NCBI GenBank assembly: GCA_027064085.1
Contig: JAMOQH010000095.1
Coordinates: forward strand, 1 to 42,530
Direction of reading: 5' to 3'
Length of the DNA: 42,530 nucleotides
Origin: a bacterium
GTDB taxonomy: Bacteria > UBP6 > JAFGXH01
The notes under the pieces were generated by a model. The model was not told the DNA's origin. It was given only the letters and a program-made list of their open reading frames with translations, and did no database searches. Both the position numbers and the translations under genes were made by a program. Positions 693 through 28,813 of the stretch are shown one piece after another. The first letter of the stretch is position 1; every line of letters begins with the position of its first letter.

Positions 693-2726
693 TTATTCTC
701 CAAGTTCTCTTCTGATACAATATCCATCATTACTCTCTTCAAACTTGCTTGCACATAAAGTATATTTCCAGCCCTTATGATGGTCATCTTGACTAGCTCC
801 TCCATTCCATGGTTCATAGGAATAGTGATATTCACTATTATTAATAGGGTCCACAGGAAGTTTCCATAAAATACCCTCTGTAACTAAATCCCTTAAATCA
901 CTGTTTTCATCCCAATCATCTCCATTACCACACTCACTTCCATTATCTCCAGTGGAACAATCACTTTCGGAATTTTCAGGTTGAGTATATGAACCATGTA
1001 TAGCATAATGTTTTTTTAATCCATCAGCAATATGATGTAAATCAACCTTTCTTGCTCTATTTCTTGAAGTAACAGAAGAATAATCTTTAATTTGAGTCCA
1101 AAAATTTAAATAATCATTATAAATATTATCGTTTTCTATGCGAATAAAGGTTTCATCATTTTGTCTTAATGCTGAAGATGTATAATTGTGAGAACCAGTT
1201 ACAACAACCTTCTTCCTTACACCATTCATTTTGGCATCAATCAACATAAATTTACAATGTATTGCGTTTTCAGCCTTTAAAAGAGATTCCTTAAGTGTTT
1301 CAATTATATTAAATCCAGGTGAAAGATAACTTCCATCTCCCCATTCAATACCTGTAATAACTTTGACATCACAACCATCTTCTGCCAACTCACTTAATTT
1401 TGAAGCCACTGAATCTCTGCCATAATCATAAAAATATGCTATTGCAATATTAATCTTTCCATTTTCAGAGCAATCTACTTCATTTAGAATATCTATAATA
1501 GGGTCACTTCCTTCTTTTTTGGGAAAGAAATAAGCTTCAACTCCTGAAATACCCATTTGCACAGTAAATGTATAATTATCTGCATCTTCTGATTTCATTT
1601 CTATAAAATGATTGAGATAAGCATTATATAAAGTTGTATCATAAGGTATAATTACTAAATCCTGAAAACGCTTAACAGAGTTATTATAAAGATTTGATGA
1701 AGATTGAAATACAACATTTTTTAAACCATTGGAAAGTTCTTCAAAAAGAATAAATTTATTGTGATTAATACCTTTATAATCCCCGTCATTATATGTTCCA
1801 AGACAACTACCCCAGCCATCATCTACACCATTATTCATCTTGCAAATATAAATACAATCGGCGGTATTATCCAAACAAATTTCAGTAGCTTGAGCTAATA
1901 AAGGAGCATTTGTTGAAGTTCTATTTTTACCATCAACAATAATTTGAATGTCAACACCTCTGCTTTTGGCAACCTTTAAACTATCCAGAATAGAATCTTC
2001 GCTTAAAAGATAGTAGCTCATTTTTATACTAGACCCGGGAACAGCCATATAAATATATTCCTTAACCTTATTAAGAATATTTCTGCTTTCAGGTGTTGCA
2101 AAAACTGTTGTTACTTCAATCTTACAGTCAGAAGAGCAACCATCATTATTTTCATTATTTCCATCATCACATTGTTCACTATTGTCCTTGTTCCCATTTC
2201 CACAAATATTTATTTCGCAATTATCTCCTTCAAAACCCTCTTTGCATTTGCAATGATATTTATTTACTTCATCTATACAAACACCATCATTAAGACATGG
2301 ATTAACAACAGGGCAGTCATTTATATTTATTTCACAATTATCTCCTTCAAAACCCTCTTTGCATTTACAATGATATTTATTTACTTCATCTATACAAACT
2401 CCATCATTTAGGCATGGATTTACAGCAGGGCAGTCATTTATATTTATTTCACAGTTATCTCCCTCAAAGCCCTCTTTGCATTCACAATGATATTTATTTA
2501 CTTCATCTATACAAATTCCATCATTAAGACACGGATTAATAGCGGGACAGTCATTTATGTTTATTTCGCAGGTTTTCCCTTTAAATCCATCTTTACAATC
2601 ACAAAATCCATCATTACATACGCCATTATTTTCACATGTAACATTTTTACATAAATCTATTTTATCTGTTTGAGAACATGAAGTAATAATTATAAATAAA
2701 AATAGAAAAGATAAAAAAAATTTCAT
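693..2726 (-). CDS. Lipoprotein with four EGF-like domains, a DUF4215-like module, a phospholipase D domain and a pseudopilin-like C-terminus
   Basis: This is a predicted outer-surface or periplasmic lipoprotein of 677 residues. A hydrophobic signal ends in ITSC with the lipid cysteine at residue 17. Four six-cysteine EGF-like domains follow (about 26-53, 60-92, 99-131, 138-170); the last three are almost identical. A cysteine-rich module with CGNG...EQCDDGN...GC..DC (175-202) resembles DUF4215/myxococcal disulphide repeats. Two HKD motifs of the phospholipase D superfamily follow: HNKFILFE at 322, with Glu in place of Asp, and HCKFMLID at 490, with GSHNYTSSAL after it. The final ~120 residues (SRNRARKVDLHHIADGLKKHY, LWKLPVDP, YHYSYE, YTLCA) resemble the globular part of type II secretion pseudopilins. 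Its GGAG site lies in the end of tldE, one base upstream of which the genes nearly touch. The substrate is unknown; nuclease or phospholipase activity is possible. Confidence 0.85.
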   Translation of the reverse strand: MKFFLSFLFLFIIITSCSQTDKIDLCKNVTCENNGVCNDGFCDCKDGFKGKTCEININDCPAINPCLNDGICIDEVNKYHCECKEGFEGDNCEININDCPAVNPCLNDGVCIDEVNKYHCKCKEGFEGDNCEININDCPVVNPCLNDGVCIDEVNKYHCKCKEGFEGDNCEINICGNGNKDNSEQCDDGNNENNDGCSSDCKIEVTTVFATPESRNILNKVKEYIYMAVPGSSIKMSYYLLSEDSILDSLKVAKSRGVDIQIIVDGKNRTSTNAPLLAQATEICLDNTADCIYICKMNNGVDDGWGSCLGTYNDGDYKGINHNKFILFEELSNGLKNVVFQSSSNLYNNSVKRFQDLVIIPYDTTLYNAYLNHFIEMKSEDADNYTFTVQMGISGVEAYFFPKKEGSDPIIDILNEVDCSENGKINIAIAYFYDYGRDSVASKLSELAEDGCDVKVITGIEWGDGSYLSPGFNIIETLKESLLKAENAIHCKFMLIDAKMNGVRKKVVVTGSHNYTSSALRQNDETFIRIENDNIYNDYLNFWTQIKDYSSVTSRNRARKVDLHHIADGLKKHYAIHGSYTQPENSESDCSTGDNGSECGNGDDWDENSDLRDLVTEGILWKLPVDPINNSEYHYSYEPWNGGASQDDHHKGWKYTLCASKFEESNDGYCIRRELGE
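2208..2567 (-). repeat. Three tandem 117-bp repeats encoding EGF-like domains
   Basis: Three consecutive 39-codon units encode EGF-like domains with the core YHCKCKEGFEGDNCEININD. They are near-identical at the DNA level as well as the protein level, differing mainly at silent positions and in the residues before NPCLNDG (PAI, PAV, PVV). This points to recent tandem expansion or homogenisation inside the EGF-PLD gene. Copy number may vary between strains. Confidence 0.85.
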
Positions 2727-11492: not shown

Positions 11493-14400
11493 TTAGTAAT
11501 TGCAATCTTCATCGTGACATAATGACATATCATTACTGCTTCTAGGCATAATAACATAAGATGCATCATCAGATTTATCACCAGTTGTACAAATACCACC
11601 AGTGAGTTCATTAGTATTTTCACCATTTTCTAATGATAAACAAGTTTCAGCTCCATTACAATCAGTATTTTCGTTACAAGCGTCTTTACTTGCAGGAGAA
11701 TTGTGTTCATATTTTAATACACCAGATAAAGTTCTTAAGGTTGTTTCATAATAATGACATTTACCTGCTCCACTATCATGACCTCTCACCATAATATGTT
11801 GACAATTATTATCACTAGTACAGTCATATTCAGGCAATACAACAGGAGCACACTCACATATTTTACATAAAATAGGATTATAGTAATAAGCACAATTATC
11901 TTCATCATTCAGAAAATCATCACCGTCTATATCCGGGTCACATTTATCGCCAATGTTATCACCATCAAAATCTGATTGAACAGGATTAAATACATTTGGA
12001 CAATTATCAGAAACATCTTTTACACCATCCCAATCTTTATCACTAGTATAATCACATGCGTTACCCCAGTTTCCACTTCTTGGAGGAGGCATAGTTGCAT
12101 TATATAATTTTTTACTATCTACAACACAATCATCATTAATATCTAAATGATAACCACTATCACATGAACACTCTGCTACCCCCTGAATAACATTACAAAT
12201 ACTTTTATGACTTTCAGGACAAGTATTTGTTTCACATACTTCATCTATAATGCAACTATTTGCCACTCCATGGTAACCGCTATCACATGAACATTCTACT
12301 ATTCCTCCAACAATATTACAAACAGTTTTATGCTCTTCTGTGCAACTATCGTCTTCGCAAACTTCATCTATAACACATTCATTGTTTGCAAAATGGAAAC
12401 CAGTATTGCATTCATCACAGTTGGCACCACGATAGCCTTCATTGCAAGACCAATCACAACCAGTTATAGCATTCCAAGTACCGTCTTGATTTCTTGTAAT
12501 AGTTCCATCACCATCTCCATTTAAACTTGCATTTGCAGGAATACTAGAAACATCACATGGTTTATCATAAGCTTGATCTAAATTTTCAACAGTTGGACAA
12601 TTATCGTCTTCATTAACCCAACCGTCACCATCTAAATCATTATCACAAGCATCACCTTTATTATCATGATCCATGTCTTCCTGATTTGGATTATAATCTA
12701 ATATACAGTTATCAACACTATCTTTAACACCATCATTATCTTGGTCATCAGTAGCTTGACAAGTATCCCCCACACCATTTTTATCTGTATCCTCTTGTAT
12801 TAATTTAAACCCTCTTTTACAGTATTTATTACAAGAAGTCCATGATTCCTTATTACAAGCATTATTTATACATTGTCCAGTACCTTTATTTAAAGAATAA
12901 TCATTTGTTAATTCTTTATCAATATAGAACTCTTCATCATAAGAATCTTTTAGTGTAGTTCTAAAATTATTAGAAGAAGCTGCATTTTCTATTACAGTAT
13001 ATGGTTTATTATCAACAGCGTTTATCAATAATGATTCAAAACCTTCAGCTTTATTAGATTTATTTTTAAGTATTTGAGCAACTCTTATATCATAGTAATA
13101 AGGATCAAAAGGCTCTAGTTTTCTACAAACATTATCTTCCAGATTACAATATTCATCACTTTTACAAACACTGCAATATTTCTCTTCATCTCCACTTCCA
13201 CAAGGATAATGAGAATTTTCTTCATCACAATAAACATTCATTCTATGAAAATAATCTTTTAAACTAATCGCCCTTGACATCCCGTAGTGATTTATGTATT
13301 CAACTGAAGTTATTATTTCATCGCCAGGTTTATAATCCTTATAGCTTTCATATTCGTCTTTACGAATAATTACATATATTCCTCTATATAAATAGGTACT
13401 TAAAGGACATAAGTCAATATTACTATCTGAATTTTGTTCACAACTTATAACTTCTCCATCATTATTATAAGTACAATTACAACCTCTAAAATAACCACCA
13501 TCAACTTTGGGTGTTTGGGCATACAAATAAAACCCCAAACTTTTATTTATAGTATCATTATAAACGGCTAAAATTCTACCAGTAATACTATCTTTATATT
13601 TAGATGTTTTTATAGTGGTTTTATTATACCCATGAAACTCTCTTATTTTATTAACTTCAGCTTGAACACAGTGCCCAGAAGCTTCTCCATCTTTTATTTC
13701 ACATAAAGTAGAACCAGTTGCAGAATCTTCTATATTGGCAAAACAATCACTACTTCTATAACATGTTTTATATTCACAAACATGAGTTGTATTATTACAT
13801 TGTTTATCATAACTACAATCTGTATTTTGATTACAAGTACCATACACTAAAGAGCAACCAGACTCTAAACAAACTTCCCAAGGATTACAATTACCACATG
13901 AATTAGAAAAGTTTTCACATTGATGAGAAACAGAACTACATAAAGAATATGCACCACAGTAATCATCTAAACTACAGTTAAAATTTGTTTCATCTGCAAT
14001 ACACATTCCATCCTTACAAATTTCCCAAGGTTGACATTCTACAAAACATTCATATTCATTTTTAACACAATCATGAAGCGAGGTATCACAAACTCTATCA
14101 TCAGGACAATCACCATTATTATTACAAGCATTTGTATCTAAAACACATTTCCAATTAGGGTCACAATGTTCCCAGTTATCACAGTCATCATCATCTTGAC
14201 ATGGTTTAGCAATTTCTTCTGATATACAATCATGAGTTTCAGGGTCGCAAGTCATATTTCTTGGACAATCAGCTTTTACATTACATTTATCACTCATAAG
14301 CTCACAAGAATTAGTTTCAACAGAACAAACTTCCCAAGAATCACATTCTGGAGTACAGCTGGAATTAACTTCAACACAGTTATGAGTATTTAAATCACAA

Positions 14401-17400
14401 GAAATTGAAGTTGTTTCATCAGTTGAGTTGCAACCATAATTTTCATATGGATTTTCACCTATATAAACCTGATCAGAACACCGTCCATCAGCTAACAAAC
14501 ATTTTTTGGCTTGATGAATGTGGTTATCATTTTCATCATAATATGAGTAAACTTTACATTCTTCCCATTCATTACAAGGAGAATCACAGGCAAGCTTACA
14601 AGTATGAGTTTCTGTACTGCATTTTTTGCCACTTTCACAATTCAAATCACTCTCACATAATCCCTCAGTTAGTACACATTGACCATCATTACATTCTTGG
14701 TAATCAGCACATATAGGATTACATATTCTTTCACAACTATGCTCGGAATTACAAACTTGATTTTCTAAACAATCAGTAGTATTTCCACATCTGTTATCAT
14801 CATTAACACACTCTCCTCTATCGTTACAGGATTCCCATGATTCACATACAGGATTACAAACAGCTACACATTCATGAGATAAAGGGTCACATGTTTTTAC
14901 TCCATCACAATCAGAACTTGAATCACAATGATCTTCTTTAGGAATACAGACATGACTACTTGAACAGTATTGCCATACTAAGCAATCATCATTATCAAAA
15001 CATCCATTTGGCTGATCATTTACACAATTATGATTTTCATTACATCTTTCATTATTGTTACATTGAGAATTATTCTCACAAAAGCCAGCATTTAGCTGAC
15101 ATTGCTCTGCTACACATCGTTCCCAGTCTTTACAATCTGGATTACAAACACTTCCATTTGGATTAGATTTACATGAATGACTACTTACATCACAATATTT
15201 ATTGGACGGACAATCTCCTCCATCATTACAACGATTAGAATTAACTAAACAATTATTACCACTACATATTTCCCATGCTTGGCAACTAACATTACAATTA
15301 TTACTTTCGCATAGGTGACTTATTGCATCACAACTTTCATTATTTTCACAATCATTATCATCGATACATCTATCATCTCTTGATTGACAATTATTACTAG
15401 AACATATTTCCCAAGGATTGCAAATAGGATTGCAACCCGATGGGTCTGGATCTTGACATTCTTTATTTTTACAAACTTGCCCTCCACGACAATCACTTAC
15501 ATTAGTACAAGTTCCTTCTATATTTTTACAAATATCACCTTCTGCACAATATTCCCATGATTTACAATCAGGAATGCAACTGTTTGATGGTTCTAATTTA
15601 CAAGTATGACTCAATCTTGAACAATATTTACCATCTCCACAATCATTATTCCTTAAACATCTTCCATTAGCTAATTCACATTGGTTAGTAATATTACATA
15701 CTTCCCATGGTTTACAAAAAGGATCACACGAATCTGAAGGATCCTCTTCACATGTATGAGTATCTAAATTACATGTAGCACTATATCCATAAGTTGTTCC
15801 ACAATCTTCACTTCCATCACAATACTCTATTTCTCCACAAGTATGATTTCTAGCATCACAAAATAATCCAGTTGCGCAATCAGAACTATCAGAACACCTA
15901 TCTTCATTACTTGAGCAAGTTCCATCATTATTACAAGTTTCCCAATCTTTACAAGAGGGAGTACAATTAGTATATTCACATAAATGACTTACTGAATTAC
16001 ACATTTTTCCATCTATACAATCATTATTTGAATCACATCTACCTGTTCTTACTTTACAATTGTTATTTGAACATACTTCCCAAGGATCACACAAAGGACT
16101 ACATCCATTCGGGTCAGGCTCTTGGCATTCGTTATTATTGCAAACATCAGTTCCTGAACATTCACTAGTAGTAGAACAAGTTCCTTCTATTTTTTTACAA
16201 ATATTACCCTCTGCACAATACTCTAAATCACTACAAGCAGGAGCACAATCATTTGAAGGTTCATCCTTACAAGTATGAGTTAGCCTTGAACAATATTTAC
16301 CATTTCCACATTCTGCATTAGTAGAACATCTTCCGTCAGCCAATTCACATTGATTATTTATATTACACTCTTCATAAGGTTTACAAAATGGATCGCAATC
16401 ACTTGATGGATCTTCTTTACAAACATGAGTAGTTAAATCACATGTGGCACTAAATCCGTATGTTGTTCCACAATCATCATCAGCATCACAAAAACCATCA
16501 TTTACAGAACACTCTCCATTATCTTCACAAGTTCCCCAAGTATCACAATTTTCTGTACAATTATTTTCACATTTATGAGAACTTAAATCACATTTTTTAC
16601 CATTTTTACAAGTTGAATCACTAGTGCAATAATCATCATTATTTAAAATACAAGTTTTTCCATCAGGAGAACATTCCTCCCAATATTCACATTCTACTTC
16701 ACATTCAGTTTCACATTTATGAGTCGCAAAATCACAAACAGAATCACCTAAGCAATCTTCAACTAAATTACAAGACCCCTGTGCTAGTTTACATCGACCA
16801 TCTTCACAGTATTCCCATGAATTACAATCATTATCTGTTTCACAAGCAGTATTATTTAGAGGTACACATTTATGTTCGGAATTACACTTTTCACCATTTG
16901 CACAATCAATATTTTCTGAACAATAGCCAACAGCAGCAACACAGTTATCATGTCTATCACATGTTTGCCATAATTCGCATATTGGAGCACAAACACCAGG
17001 GTCCTTCTTACAAGTATGAGTATCGGGGTTACAAGTAAAACTAGTCGCTGTATTTCTTTCACAGCCTACTTTAGGATCACACCTTCCACTTGCAGTCACA
17101 CAGGTTCCATCTTCATCACATGTTTGCCAGCCTTCACATTTAGGATTACAATTATCATATTCACATTTATGTTTATTATTACAAACTTGACCACTTTTGC
17201 AATCTGTAGCATCATTACAAAAATATCTGTCCTTGTCTGCCTTACAAACTTTATCTTCTGTACATATTTCCCATGAATTACACTCAGGTTGACAATTATA
17301 TGTACATTTATGAGTTCTTGAGTCACATATAGGCTTATCTTCTCCACAATCGTTATAAGTATTACAATATTCTTCTAGGGCAACACATTTATTGTTTAAA

Positions 17401-17678
17401 TCACATCGCTCCCATGATTCACAACCAGGATTACAACTTCCTAAACACCAATTTGTTTTCGTATCACAAGCCTGAGGATATTCACAATCTTGTTGAGCTT
17501 CACATCGACCTTCTTTAGGTAAACAACTTGATGTAACTTCCCCATAATCATCTTCAACAGAATTACATTGTTCCCAATCTTTACATTTTGGCTCACAATT
17601 TCCTATAGGTGTAACCGTATTACATGATTGAAAGTACAACAAGAAAAGCAGTATAAATGAAAAAAATAATTTCGCCAT
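11493..17678 (-). CDS. Giant cysteine-rich repeat lipoprotein (2061 residues)
   Basis: Predicted surface lipoprotein. The signal peptide ends LLYFQSC with the lipid cysteine at residue 19 (a relaxed lipobox). Residues ~27-1290 consist of about 25 units of ~50 residues, each of the form C.P.C..WE.C.....C....GRC....DC....CD..TH.C. A domain at ~1340-1465 (TGRILAVYN, LGFYLYAQTP, GIYVIIRK, YKPGDEI) looks like an OB-fold insertion. Then come two blocks of thrombospondin-3-like calcium repeats (about 1635-1700 and 1873-1920; DQDNDGVKDSVDNC, DIDGDDFLNDEDNC) around EGF-like domains (1739-1860; CSCDSGYHG). The C-terminus is cysteine-rich with no anchor. The start is preceded by GGGGG. Cysteine spacing implies extensive disulphides, so export to an oxidising place. 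An adhesin or coat role is only a guess. Confidence 0.85.
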   Translation of the reverse strand: MAKLFFSFILLFLLYFQSCNTVTPIGNCEPKCKDWEQCNSVEDDYGEVTSSCLPKEGRCEAQQDCEYPQACDTKTNWCLGSCNPGCESWERCDLNNKCVALEEYCNTYNDCGEDKPICDSRTHKCTYNCQPECNSWEICTEDKVCKADKDRYFCNDATDCKSGQVCNNKHKCEYDNCNPKCEGWQTCDEDGTCVTASGRCDPKVGCERNTATSFTCNPDTHTCKKDPGVCAPICELWQTCDRHDNCVAAVGYCSENIDCANGEKCNSEHKCVPLNNTACETDNDCNSWEYCEDGRCKLAQGSCNLVEDCLGDSVCDFATHKCETECEVECEYWEECSPDGKTCILNNDDYCTSDSTCKNGKKCDLSSHKCENNCTENCDTWGTCEDNGECSVNDGFCDADDDCGTTYGFSATCDLTTHVCKEDPSSDCDPFCKPYEECNINNQCELADGRCSTNAECGNGKYCSRLTHTCKDEPSNDCAPACSDLEYCAEGNICKKIEGTCSTTSECSGTDVCNNNECQEPDPNGCSPLCDPWEVCSNNNCKVRTGRCDSNNDCIDGKMCNSVSHLCEYTNCTPSCKDWETCNNDGTCSSNEDRCSDSSDCATGLFCDARNHTCGEIEYCDGSEDCGTTYGYSATCNLDTHTCEEDPSDSCDPFCKPWEVCNITNQCELANGRCLRNNDCGDGKYCSRLSHTCKLEPSNSCIPDCKSWEYCAEGDICKNIEGTCTNVSDCRGGQVCKNKECQDPDPSGCNPICNPWEICSSNNCQSRDDRCIDDNDCENNESCDAISHLCESNNCNVSCQAWEICSGNNCLVNSNRCNDGGDCPSNKYCDVSSHSCKSNPNGSVCNPDCKDWERCVAEQCQLNAGFCENNSQCNNNERCNENHNCVNDQPNGCFDNDDCLVWQYCSSSHVCIPKEDHCDSSSDCDGVKTCDPLSHECVAVCNPVCESWESCNDRGECVNDDNRCGNTTDCLENQVCNSEHSCERICNPICADYQECNDGQCVLTEGLCESDLNCESGKKCSTETHTCKLACDSPCNEWEECKVYSYYDENDNHIHQAKKCLLADGRCSDQVYIGENPYENYGCNSTDETTSISCDLNTHNCVEVNSSCTPECDSWEVCSVETNSCELMSDKCNVKADCPRNMTCDPETHDCISEEIAKPCQDDDDCDNWEHCDPNWKCVLDTNACNNNGDCPDDRVCDTSLHDCVKNEYECFVECQPWEICKDGMCIADETNFNCSLDDYCGAYSLCSSVSHQCENFSNSCGNCNPWEVCLESGCSLVYGTCNQNTDCSYDKQCNNTTHVCEYKTCYRSSDCFANIEDSATGSTLCEIKDGEASGHCVQAEVNKIREFHGYNKTTIKTSKYKDSITGRILAVYNDTINKSLGFYLYAQTPKVDGGYFRGCNCTYNNDGEVISCEQNSDSNIDLCPLSTYLYRGIYVIIRKDEYESYKDYKPGDEIITSVEYINHYGMSRAISLKDYFHRMNVYCDEENSHYPCGSGDEEKYCSVCKSDEYCNLEDNVCRKLEPFDPYYYDIRVAQILKNKSNKAEGFESLLINAVDNKPYTVIENAASSNNFRTTLKDSYDEEFYIDKELTNDYSLNKGTGQCINNACNKESWTSCNKYCKRGFKLIQEDTDKNGVGDTCQATDDQDNDGVKDSVDNCILDYNPNQEDMDHDNKGDACDNDLDGDGWVNEDDNCPTVENLDQAYDKPCDVSSIPANASLNGDGDGTITRNQDGTWNAITGCDWSCNEGYRGANCDECNTGFHFANNECVIDEVCEDDSCTEEHKTVCNIVGGIVECSCDSGYHGVANSCIIDEVCETNTCPESHKSICNVIQGVAECSCDSGYHLDINDDCVVDSKKLYNATMPPPRSGNWGNACDYTSDKDWDGVKDVSDNCPNVFNPVQSDFDGDNIGDKCDPDIDGDDFLNDEDNCAYYYNPILCKICECAPVVLPEYDCTSDNNCQHIMVRGHDSGAGKCHYYETTLRTLSGVLKYEHNSPASKDACNENTDCNGAETCLSLENGENTNELTGGICTTGDKSDDASYVIMPRSSNDMSLCHDEDCNY
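15250..16480 (-). repeat. 669-bp internal duplication in the giant lipoprotein gene
   Basis: Two consecutive stretches, about 15250-15810 and 15920-16480, encode the same four-unit order with high similarity. Both start with CGTTYG(F/Y)SATC and continue through CELA(D/N)GRC, YCSRL(T/S)HTCK, (C/I)...EYCAEG(N/D)ICK, and DP(N/S)GC(S/N)P. The matching points 15781 and 16450 are 669 bases (223 codons) apart, so the array grew by a segmental, in-frame, multi-unit duplication and not only by single-unit steps. Confidence 0.75.
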
Positions 17679-26768: not shown

Positions 26769-26798
26769 TTGACAATTTCCCTTGAAAAGTCTTAAAAT
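26769..26798 (+). promoter_or_regulatory. Sigma-70-type promoter of the parA operon
   Basis: TTGACA at 26769-26774 and TAAAAT at 26793-26798 with an 18-base spacer, about 30 bases before the parA start. The -35 box is a perfect consensus match. Confidence 0.6.
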
Positions 26799-26826
26799 AT
26801 GTCTTGAAATATTTTTTGGAGAAAAG

Positions 26827-27609
26827 ATGACCAAAGTAATATCTATCGCAAATCAAAAGGGTGGAGTTGGTAAAACGATAACAGCTATTAATTTATCAAG
26901 TTTTTTAACAATATTGAATAAAAAAGTTCTTTTAATTGATATGGACCCTCAAGGCCATAGTGGAATTGGACTTGGAATTGACATTGAAGACGAAGATTAT
27001 TCAACAACTTACGACTTATTAATAAATAAAGATAAAACCCTAGATGATTGTGTTACAGAAATTGATATTAAAGATAAAACTTTGGATTTAGTCATTTCCA
27101 ATGTGGAATTAAGCTATGCAGAAAGGGAGTTAGAAAAACTATATCGTTCTCCAATACAAATATTAAAGAAAAAGTTAAAACCTGTAGTTAAATCAAAAGT
27201 ATATGACTATATAATTATAGATTGTCCTCCATCATTAGGTAATTTAGCAATTAATGCATTTTTATCATCAGACACAATTATTGTCCCTGTTGCAACATCA
27301 TTTTTTTCATTGCATGGAGTAGAAAAAATTGCAGGTACGCTAAACGAAATTATGGATGAATTAGAAATTGAATTTAATATATTTGGCTTGTTAACTAGGT
27401 ATAGAAGAAACCAAAATGTTTCTCATGAAGTCCATCAAACAATGAAAGAATACTTTAATAATAATATGTTTAAAACAGTTATAAGAGAAAATATTGATTT
27501 GGAAAAGGCTATTGGTGAAGGTTTGCCAATTTGTGAATACAAAAAATCATCAAACGGTTATTTAGATTATAAACGACTAGCTATGGAGATAATGAGTTAT
27601 GGCAACTAA
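26827..27609 (+). CDS. ParA/Soj-family partitioning ATPase
   Basis: ParA ATPases position DNA or protein cargo by cycling on the nucleoid. The 260-residue product has the deviant Walker A KGGVGKT at residues 11-17, the A' motif LIDMDPQGHSGIGLG, and the Walker B/switch II region IIIDCPPSLGNLAINAF. It lacks the N-terminal helix-turn-helix of plasmid-type ParA, so it is a Soj-like form. The frame extends upstream to 26782, but ATG 26827 with GGAG before it gives the family N-terminus MTKVISIANQ. No parB follows; the last 11 bases overlap a beta-propeller gene. I saw no parS consensus nearby. It could be the chromosomal Soj or an orphan ParA for another cargo. Confidence 0.88.
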   Translation: MTKVISIANQKGGVGKTITAINLSSFLTILNKKVLLIDMDPQGHSGIGLGIDIEDEDYSTTYDLLINKDKTLDDCVTEIDIKDKTLDLVISNVELSYAERELEKLYRSPIQILKKKLKPVVKSKVYDYIIIDCPPSLGNLAINAFLSSDTIIVPVATSFFSLHGVEKIAGTLNEIMDELEIEFNIFGLLTRYRRNQNVSHEVHQTMKEYFNNNMFKTVIRENIDLEKAIGEGLPICEYKKSSNGYLDYKRLAMEIMSYGN

Positions 27610-28813
27610 GAAAAAGAAAGCTAAAAGAGGTAATAAGGTAAAAAAAGGTGGATTTTTTAAAGAAAAAGGGGGCTTATTTAATCAAACTACAGATGAAACA
27701 GTTAATCCTACTAAAAAATTTATCAAAAATGTCTCTGATGATGAAAATATCGAATTAACAGAAAGTGGAAAATCTCATTTCGAAACGGTAAAAAAACAAA
27801 AATTTATAGAATCAATGGAACCTGCAATATTATTAGATAATTTATTTAATGAATTTGAATTGATAAAAATAAATAACTCTTTATTTCTTGAACTAGAAAA
27901 TAATGAACAAATTTATGAAGGTGTAAAGTATTACCTAAAAGAAAAAGAAAATATTTGGCTATTTTTTGAAGATAAAGCAATTATGCTTGATTATGCTCTT
28001 ATGGAGGAGTTAAGTTTTAATTATGAATCAGAAAATATTCTAAAATACTCTCCAACGATAGTAAATAATAAAATATTTTTTATTGCAAATAAAGAAATAC
28101 ACATCTATAACTTAACAGAAGAAACATGGATGCACTACTCTATTTCAGGAGAAACAACATCTTCTGCGATAGTAAATGACGAAAAGATTTTTTTGGTAAT
28201 TGATTTTACTAAACTCGTTTGTTTAAATGAAAACTTTAAGGAAGAGTGGTCTTTTATTACTGAGGGATATTTATTAAACACTCCAACTATAGACGATTTT
28301 TTATACATCACATCTAGTGATGGAATGTTATACAAACTTGATAAAGAAGGTGATATAATTTGGTCTTTTAATTCTAAAAGCTCTCTAGAAACACCTCCAA
28401 TCTTATTTAAAGATATAGTTGTAATTAATTCAATGGCAGGTAAGTTATTTTTCATATCAAAAGAAGATAAAAGAGAGCTAGCTATTATTGATTTAGGTTT
28501 TCACTTACTAAATAAACCAGCAATCAAAAATAATGTTCTTTATGCATTTAACAGAAGATTCATTTATAAAGTGGATTTGGTGAATTATAAAATTCTTGAC
28601 ATACTTATGCTTGAAGAACCTATAGAATCAATTTCTAGCCTAGACGATTATTTGCATATAAAAACTAAAAATTCAAAAAGTCTCATCCTAGATGAAACAT
28701 TTACAAATATAAATATAACAAATTTTAAATCAAGTAAGTCTCCAATTCAACATGTTAACTTTTTATTATCTATTGATGAAAATTATAGTTTATTAAAAAC
28801 TGAAATAGTTTAA
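27599..28813 (+). CDS. PQQ-like beta-propeller protein with lysine-rich N-terminus, coupled to ParA
   Basis: A 404-residue protein without signal peptide, so predicted cytoplasmic. The first 17 residues (MATKKKKAKRGNKVKKG) are almost all basic, followed by a low-complexity linker to about residue 60. From ~115 onward the sequence shows repeated blades of the PQQ/WD-like kind: FFIANKEIHIYNLTEETW, IFLVIDFTKLVCLNENFKEEW, LYITSSDGMLYKLDKEGDIIW, VVINSMAGKLFFISKEDK, VLYAFNRRFIYKVDLVNYK. Such proteins are usually periplasmic; this one is not. It starts inside parA (11-base overlap), which implies coupled translation and a shared role. A basic N-terminal tail is typical of proteins that activate ParA ATPases, so it may be ParA's partner. 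Confidence 0.7.
   Translation: MATKKKKAKRGNKVKKGGFFKEKGGLFNQTTDETVNPTKKFIKNVSDDENIELTESGKSHFETVKKQKFIESMEPAILLDNLFNEFELIKINNSLFLELENNEQIYEGVKYYLKEKENIWLFFEDKAIMLDYALMEELSFNYESENILKYSPTIVNNKIFFIANKEIHIYNLTEETWMHYSISGETTSSAIVNDEKIFLVIDFTKLVCLNENFKEEWSFITEGYLLNTPTIDDFLYITSSDGMLYKLDKEGDIIWSFNSKSSLETPPILFKDIVVINSMAGKLFFISKEDKRELAIIDLGFHLLNKPAIKNNVLYAFNRRFIYKVDLVNYKILDILMLEEPIESISSLDDYLHIKTKNSKSLILDETFTNINITNFKSSKSPIQHVNFLLSIDENYSLLKTEIV

Follow-up and report, generated by a model that had tools for sequence, protein, structure and literature searches.

Bacteria employ ParA-type ATPases to position DNA and large protein machines within the cell. Partners of the ParA/MinD (A/D) ATPases are diverse and modular, with a short, positively charged and disordered N-terminus activating the ATPase and the rest of the protein serving the cargo (PMC7993993, PMC10241942). 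In the division-site positioning system of Myxococcus xanthus, the ATPase PomZ is activated by the short basic N-terminal peptide of its divergent partner PomX (PMC7993993), and PomZ retains DNA arginines to which a role in nucleoid binding is ascribed (PMC7229837). PomX is a filament-forming coiled-coil protein. McdA/McdB, in which an ATPase is likewise combined with an adaptor carrying a basic N-terminus (PMC7993993, PMC10241942), accompany carboxysome genes and position a protein cargo. The chromosomal Soj-Spo0J (ParABS) system is characterized by overlapping ATPase and partner genes, a basic N-terminal peptide on the partner and DNA arginines kept in Soj. Many ParA ATPases count as orphans, their partners being so varied that they escape recognition (PMC10241942).

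The window analyzed here, a 42,530-nucleotide stretch, is contig G000:C95 of a 3.65-Mb, ~95% complete bacterial genome, and contains a parA gene overlapping a gene for a predicted cytoplasmic β-propeller. The pair resembles each of these systems in joining a ParA/MinD ATPase to a partner with a basic N-terminus and shares an overlapping gene order with Soj-Spo0J. Unlike PomX, however, the partner is a propeller; unlike PomZ and Soj, the paired ParA has its DNA arginines replaced; in contrast to McdA/McdB, a search of the window's genome detected no bacterial microcompartment (BMC) shell gene; and, unlike Spo0J, the partner has no ParB domain (Pfam). In the literature searched, with the terms used, no published ParA-propeller pair was found.

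Organization and conservation of the gene pair

The features of the locus are collected in Table 1. The ATG start of parA is preceded by GGAG at 26818-26821 and is preferred over the TTG at 26782, which opens a longer, mechanically called reading frame, because the latter would lie within the best promoter-like match; this match is the best site of the region, and such matches as a class are not above chance here. The start context of the propeller gene, GGAGATAAT, is also found upstream of the start in both orthologues, in which the overlap with parA is 14 bases, compared with the 11 bases reported by the initial annotation and confirmed here. Since the next gene downstream is convergent, parA and the propeller gene form a two-gene unit.

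Table 1. Coordinates of the features of the ParA-propeller locus in the window
Feature	Position	Strand	Basis or remark
Sigma-70-like promoter candidate of the two-gene unit	26769..26798	+	TTGACA-18-TAAAAT, consensus scan 11/12
parA, 260 aa, deviant Walker A KGGVGKT, divergent non-Soj clade	26827..27609	+	ATG start
GGAG Shine-Dalgarno-like site for the propeller gene, within the end of parA	27585..27588	+	Read directly
parA/propeller overlap, 11 bases	27599..27609	+	
Propeller gene, ATG 27599 to stop 28813, 404 aa	27599..28813	+	
Basic N-terminal tail codons, residues 1-17, 9 K/R	27599..27649	+	Proposed ParA-binding, ATPase-activating peptide
Linker and N-terminal region, residues 18-110, largely unstructured by prediction	27650..27928	+	AlphaFold2 pLDDT, invariant columns
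Seven-bladed PQQ/BamB-like β-propeller, about residues 111-372	27929..28714	+	Pfam, AlphaFold2, Foldseek

The initial annotation had made its proposal of a positioning system depend on conservation of the pair in relatives, and the two genes indeed lie side by side, with an overlap, in each of the three family genomes sampled (G000, which contains the window, G001 and G002), two of which belong to one genus. The 25 further genomes of the phylum that were searched yielded neither a full-length propeller orthologue nor a second ParA of the paired kind. Among the three orthologues, identity amounts to 72% for ParA and 31% for the propeller; PomZ/PomX has been described as likewise combining a conserved ATPase and a divergent partner (PMC7993993), and this difference therefore counts in favor of the propeller being an adaptor. 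The dN/dS values between G001 and G002 (NG86) are ~0.03 for ParA and ~0.16 for the propeller, and both genes are, by this sequence measure, under purifying selection.

Within ~9 kb, ParA and the propeller are the only matches between G001 and G002, as well as between the window and G001; the comparison of the window with G002 yielded one additional weak match (28%), between large EGF-like proteins, which was not taken as an orthologue. Two 3.9-kb stretches flanking the pair in G002 map onto two and three different G001 contigs. Judging from these comparisons, gene order has been extensively reshuffled, some neighbors being kept, and the pair stayed together throughout. The propeller thus displays a hallmark of partner proteins, being encoded beside and conserved with its ATPase, in three genomes whose flanks are unrelated. 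Secreted proteins of large size, rich in cysteine and EGF-like, are found repeatedly in the family (window positions 693-2726 and 11493-17678, and 6390-9557 of L038), and the gene for one of them immediately precedes the pair in G002.

In the genomes sampled, the pair is restricted to one small lineage and is probably lineage-specific. A scan of named genomes with short peptide patterns, which was not exhaustive, returned no propeller homologues, and two such patterns for ParA gave only 34-44% identity among the matches listed. Across 386 sampled genomes, the paired-type ParAs matched at 1e-164, with a drop to 1e-60 for the next ParAs, most of which, where the next gene was readable, either had ParB downstream or were of another ParA type.

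The paired ATPase and its relation to Soj

The ATPase matches Pfam PF13614 with an E value of 2e-50 and contains the ParA/MinD motifs KGGVGKT, DMDPQ and IIIDCPPS. At the Motif 2 position of M. xanthus Asn64, which is among the residues coordinating Mg2+ and the nucleophilic water (PMC12462528), the paired ParA has a histidine (His44), as do seven other aligned ParAs. Among the 106 ParAs placed in a tree, the paired proteins form their own clade (support 100/100), apart from the Soj rows, including the soj products of their own genomes; the stem of this clade is long (2.05 changes per site), so that its exact attachment is uncertain. The solved structures closest to it in sequence are those of chromosomal ParA/Soj proteins.

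A canonical soj-spo0J locus, followed by a bactofilin gene, is located elsewhere in the window's genome (G000:C139), and separate soj-spo0J genes are also present in G001 and G002. The paired ParA is therefore not the chromosome segregation system, and chromosomal Soj was rejected as its identity; the neighbor of the paired gene is the propeller, not a Spo0J with ParB_N and HTH. The search for a second soj, suggested in the initial annotation, yielded one next to spo0J on another contig. The description of the paired ParA as Soj-like is not supported, given the separate clade and the missing Soj DNA arginines.

The latter residues, R195, R221 and R224, are known to contact DNA in Caulobacter ParA (PMC7229837). 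On alignment of the sequences with Caulobacter and M. xanthus ParA, all three paired proteins carry the replacements R195N, R221E and R224D, compared with R in 104 (position 195) and 97 (position 221) and R or K in 94 (position 224) of the 105 other ParAs. Acidic neighbors have conversely turned basic (D193R and E227K), and the same loop has gained basic residues, with TR[YF]R[RK]N in place of TMYDxR. In the alignment, this charge pattern looks like a swap on one face of ParA, which would be consistent with the use of a different surface or with insulation from Soj. With the DNA-contacting arginines lost, nucleoid binding by the paired ParA cannot be assumed.

The residues facing the partner give a mixed picture. 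In M. xanthus ParA, the invariant residues Y81 and E117 receive ParB R13, and E82 and D110 matter for stimulation (PMC12462528). All three paired ParAs retain the former two (Y62 and E101); the latter two acids correspond to D and E in the window's protein and to histidines at both positions in the two orthologues. At L152, a pocket position occupied by a hydrophobic residue in most other ParAs, the paired ParA carries Asn.

Other unusual ParAs were observed in the course of the analysis. Three loci, L168 (G113:C11, 1498-3435), L169 (G253:C4, 1501-3400) and L193 (G255:C19, 1498-3554), encode KGGCGKTT-type ParAs that have "DPQGH" as Motif 2 and are extended at the C-terminus, each with another gene behind it; the proteins encoded next in L168 and L169 contain a ParB-like "KLGRGLAEV" in the N-terminal region, as if they were ParA-activating partners. 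In the window's own genome, L044 (G000:C40, 8094-9293) encodes a ParA with an N-terminal, zinc-finger-like extension of paired cysteines (CKICGKEF, CDQCGKEF), and long-frame matches at similar E values in G001:C207 and G002:C167 suggest that this type is conserved. A further ParA-type ATPase, in L045 (G000:C108, 7854-8663), has a lysine-rich N-terminus of its own (MAFFSKKKIKKNYGNK) and directly precedes a gene for a 377-aa protein, with a pilT-like gene a few kilobases away.

The propeller and its basic N-terminal tail

All three propeller orthologues share weak Pfam matches, to Beta-prop_ACSF4 (E = 8e-12 for the window's protein, well below the Pfam cut-off) and PQQ_2 (E = 1e-5, just below the cut-off). 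The AlphaFold2 model, which was built from three sequences only and has a mean pLDDT of 61.8, confirms the predicted fold as a seven-bladed PQQ/BamB-like propeller, with seven four-stranded blades of mostly good confidence; residues 1-106 are without confident structure (pLDDT <50). Foldseek searches with the model retrieved designed propellers and BamB (E values of 6e-15 to 1e-12). The sequence scored 32 bits against the NCBIfam BamB model TIGR03300, for which the cut-off is 285. BamB belongs to the BAM complex and is exported as a lipoprotein. It and other PQQ-type propellers resemble the paired protein in fold and, weakly, in sequence, but the latter has a lysine-rich tail and a hydrophilic N-terminus in which no signal peptide was seen. 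The PQQ-like β-propeller without a signal peptide next to parA was thus correctly recognized from the outset. PQQ propellers carrying signal sequences occur separately in the phylum, and the weak matches to the paired propeller elsewhere in the phylum mostly have signal-like N-termini, where these were read.

The tail preceding the propeller had been described as 17 almost wholly basic residues; a basic tail is indeed present, but "almost wholly" is an overstatement, as 9 of the 17 residues are K or R (MATKKKKAKRGNKVKKG). Absence of the tail in orthologues would have spoken against the proposal, and both orthologues possess one, with 6 of 13 residues basic. Its core, TKKKKxKRxN, and the FF that follows are invariant across the three proteins, which are otherwise 31% identical, and conserved islands are found at FF 19-20, KKFI 39-42 and E71-I91 within residues 18-110. 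In ParB, hydrophobic residues of the activating peptide also matter (PMC12462528); in the propeller protein, the invariant FF comes after the basic run. A stretch of eight residues with at least six K or R near the N-terminus was found in only 3 of 152 non-overlapping open reading frames of at least 150 aa, taken from stretches of the three genomes, with mechanically called starts limiting the count; these three are the propeller and its two orthologues. The basic tail is thus exceptional among the reading frames sampled from its genomes, and the propeller possesses the positively charged and, by prediction, disordered N-terminal peptide that is a hallmark of ATPase-activating partners.

A putative positioning pair and its alternatives

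On account of the conserved ATPase, the divergent partner, the basic free tail and the folded domain, we take the two genes as a likely dedicated positioning unit. Judging from these features, they probably encode a ParA-partner pair for positioning a protein cargo, with the propeller acting as the ATPase-activating adaptor. An ATP-bound ParA dimer would sit on an intracellular surface, and the disordered, lysine-rich N-terminal peptide of the propeller would bind this dimer and trigger ATP hydrolysis. The propeller and linker would hold the cargo, and the ParA gradient would pull this cargo along or set its spacing, in the manner of PomZ/PomX, McdA/McdB and PpfA/TlpT. We infer the ParA-propeller interaction, the ATPase stimulation, the binding of cargo by the propeller and the type of surface. 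The retention of Y62/E101, the separate soj-spo0J, the adjacency despite changed flanks and the purifying selection count in favor of such a pair; the loss of the arginines, the Motif 2 histidine, the asparagine at L152 and the histidines at E82/D110 in the orthologues count against it, as do the sample of only three genomes and the lack of a shared cargo among the candidates examined. Of the positioning system suggested initially, the combination of a ParA with a tail-activated partner is the best supported part, by the pairing, the tail and the separate parAB.

It is rather unlikely that the two genes share an operon without any functional partnership, with ParA regulating something else and the tail binding nucleic acid or aiding solubility. 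The link between the two proteins is drawn from sequence, and an AT-rich genome makes lysine-rich N-termini easier to reach, but the adjacency was retained while all flanking orthologues changed, the tail is unique among the 152 reading frames of the same genomes, and its codons differ between G001 and G002 by silent changes only, the residues being kept. We also consider it quite unlikely that the roles are reversed, such that the polylysine tail touches the nucleoid or another polyanion (RNA) and ParA switches the assembly or release of the propeller. The N, E and D at the DNA-contact positions of all three paired ParAs would agree with this, as would the charge distribution of the propeller, with a net charge of +9 for residues 1-17 and -22 for the remainder; however, the loop concerned has acquired basic residues in this ParA and MipZ contacts DNA through a different set of residues (PMC7229837), so that the paired ParA may still bind DNA, and the acceptor residues are kept. 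A partition module derived from a plasmid or other element, in which the propeller would have replaced the centromere-binding protein and the cargo would be DNA, is highly improbable: the genes overlap as in parAB, and the PHROGs ParA-like partition family matched at 6e-57, but the propeller has no DNA-binding domain in Pfam or NCBIfam, no full-length relative was found on 72,556 plasmids (the best ten listed places, in PQQ proteins, kinases and an unnamed protein, cover 42-59% of the query) and none in a limited peptide-pattern scan of viral contigs, and all three copies of the pair lie in ordinary chromosomal contexts. Plasmid or phage partition was rejected on the plasmid and viral results, and anti-phage defence because PADLOC gave nothing beyond one marginal match (0.001).

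The positioning of a protein cargo by ParA and the propeller is thus the reading that we prefer. Tentatively, it may be narrowed to a lineage-specific system with a propeller adaptor, in which the charge-swapped ParA would use a surface other than the nucleoid or avoid mixing with Soj. With regard to the cargo, BMC shell genes are present in both relatives (G001:C181 and G002:C226); as none was detected in the window's genome, within its ~95% completeness, a carboxysome-like cargo was rejected, and microcompartments are unlikely to be the common cargo. A chemosensory cargo is not diagnostic, because CheW is also encoded in eight genomes of the phylum that lack the pair. With BMC shell genes and CheW as candidates, no shared cargo was found.

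The conserved pair gives one orphan ParA a testable partner and adds a repeat-fold scaffold to the types of ParA partner discussed in the papers cited. A natural ParA with a sign-changed DNA-binding face also bears on how several ParA systems are kept separate within one cell.
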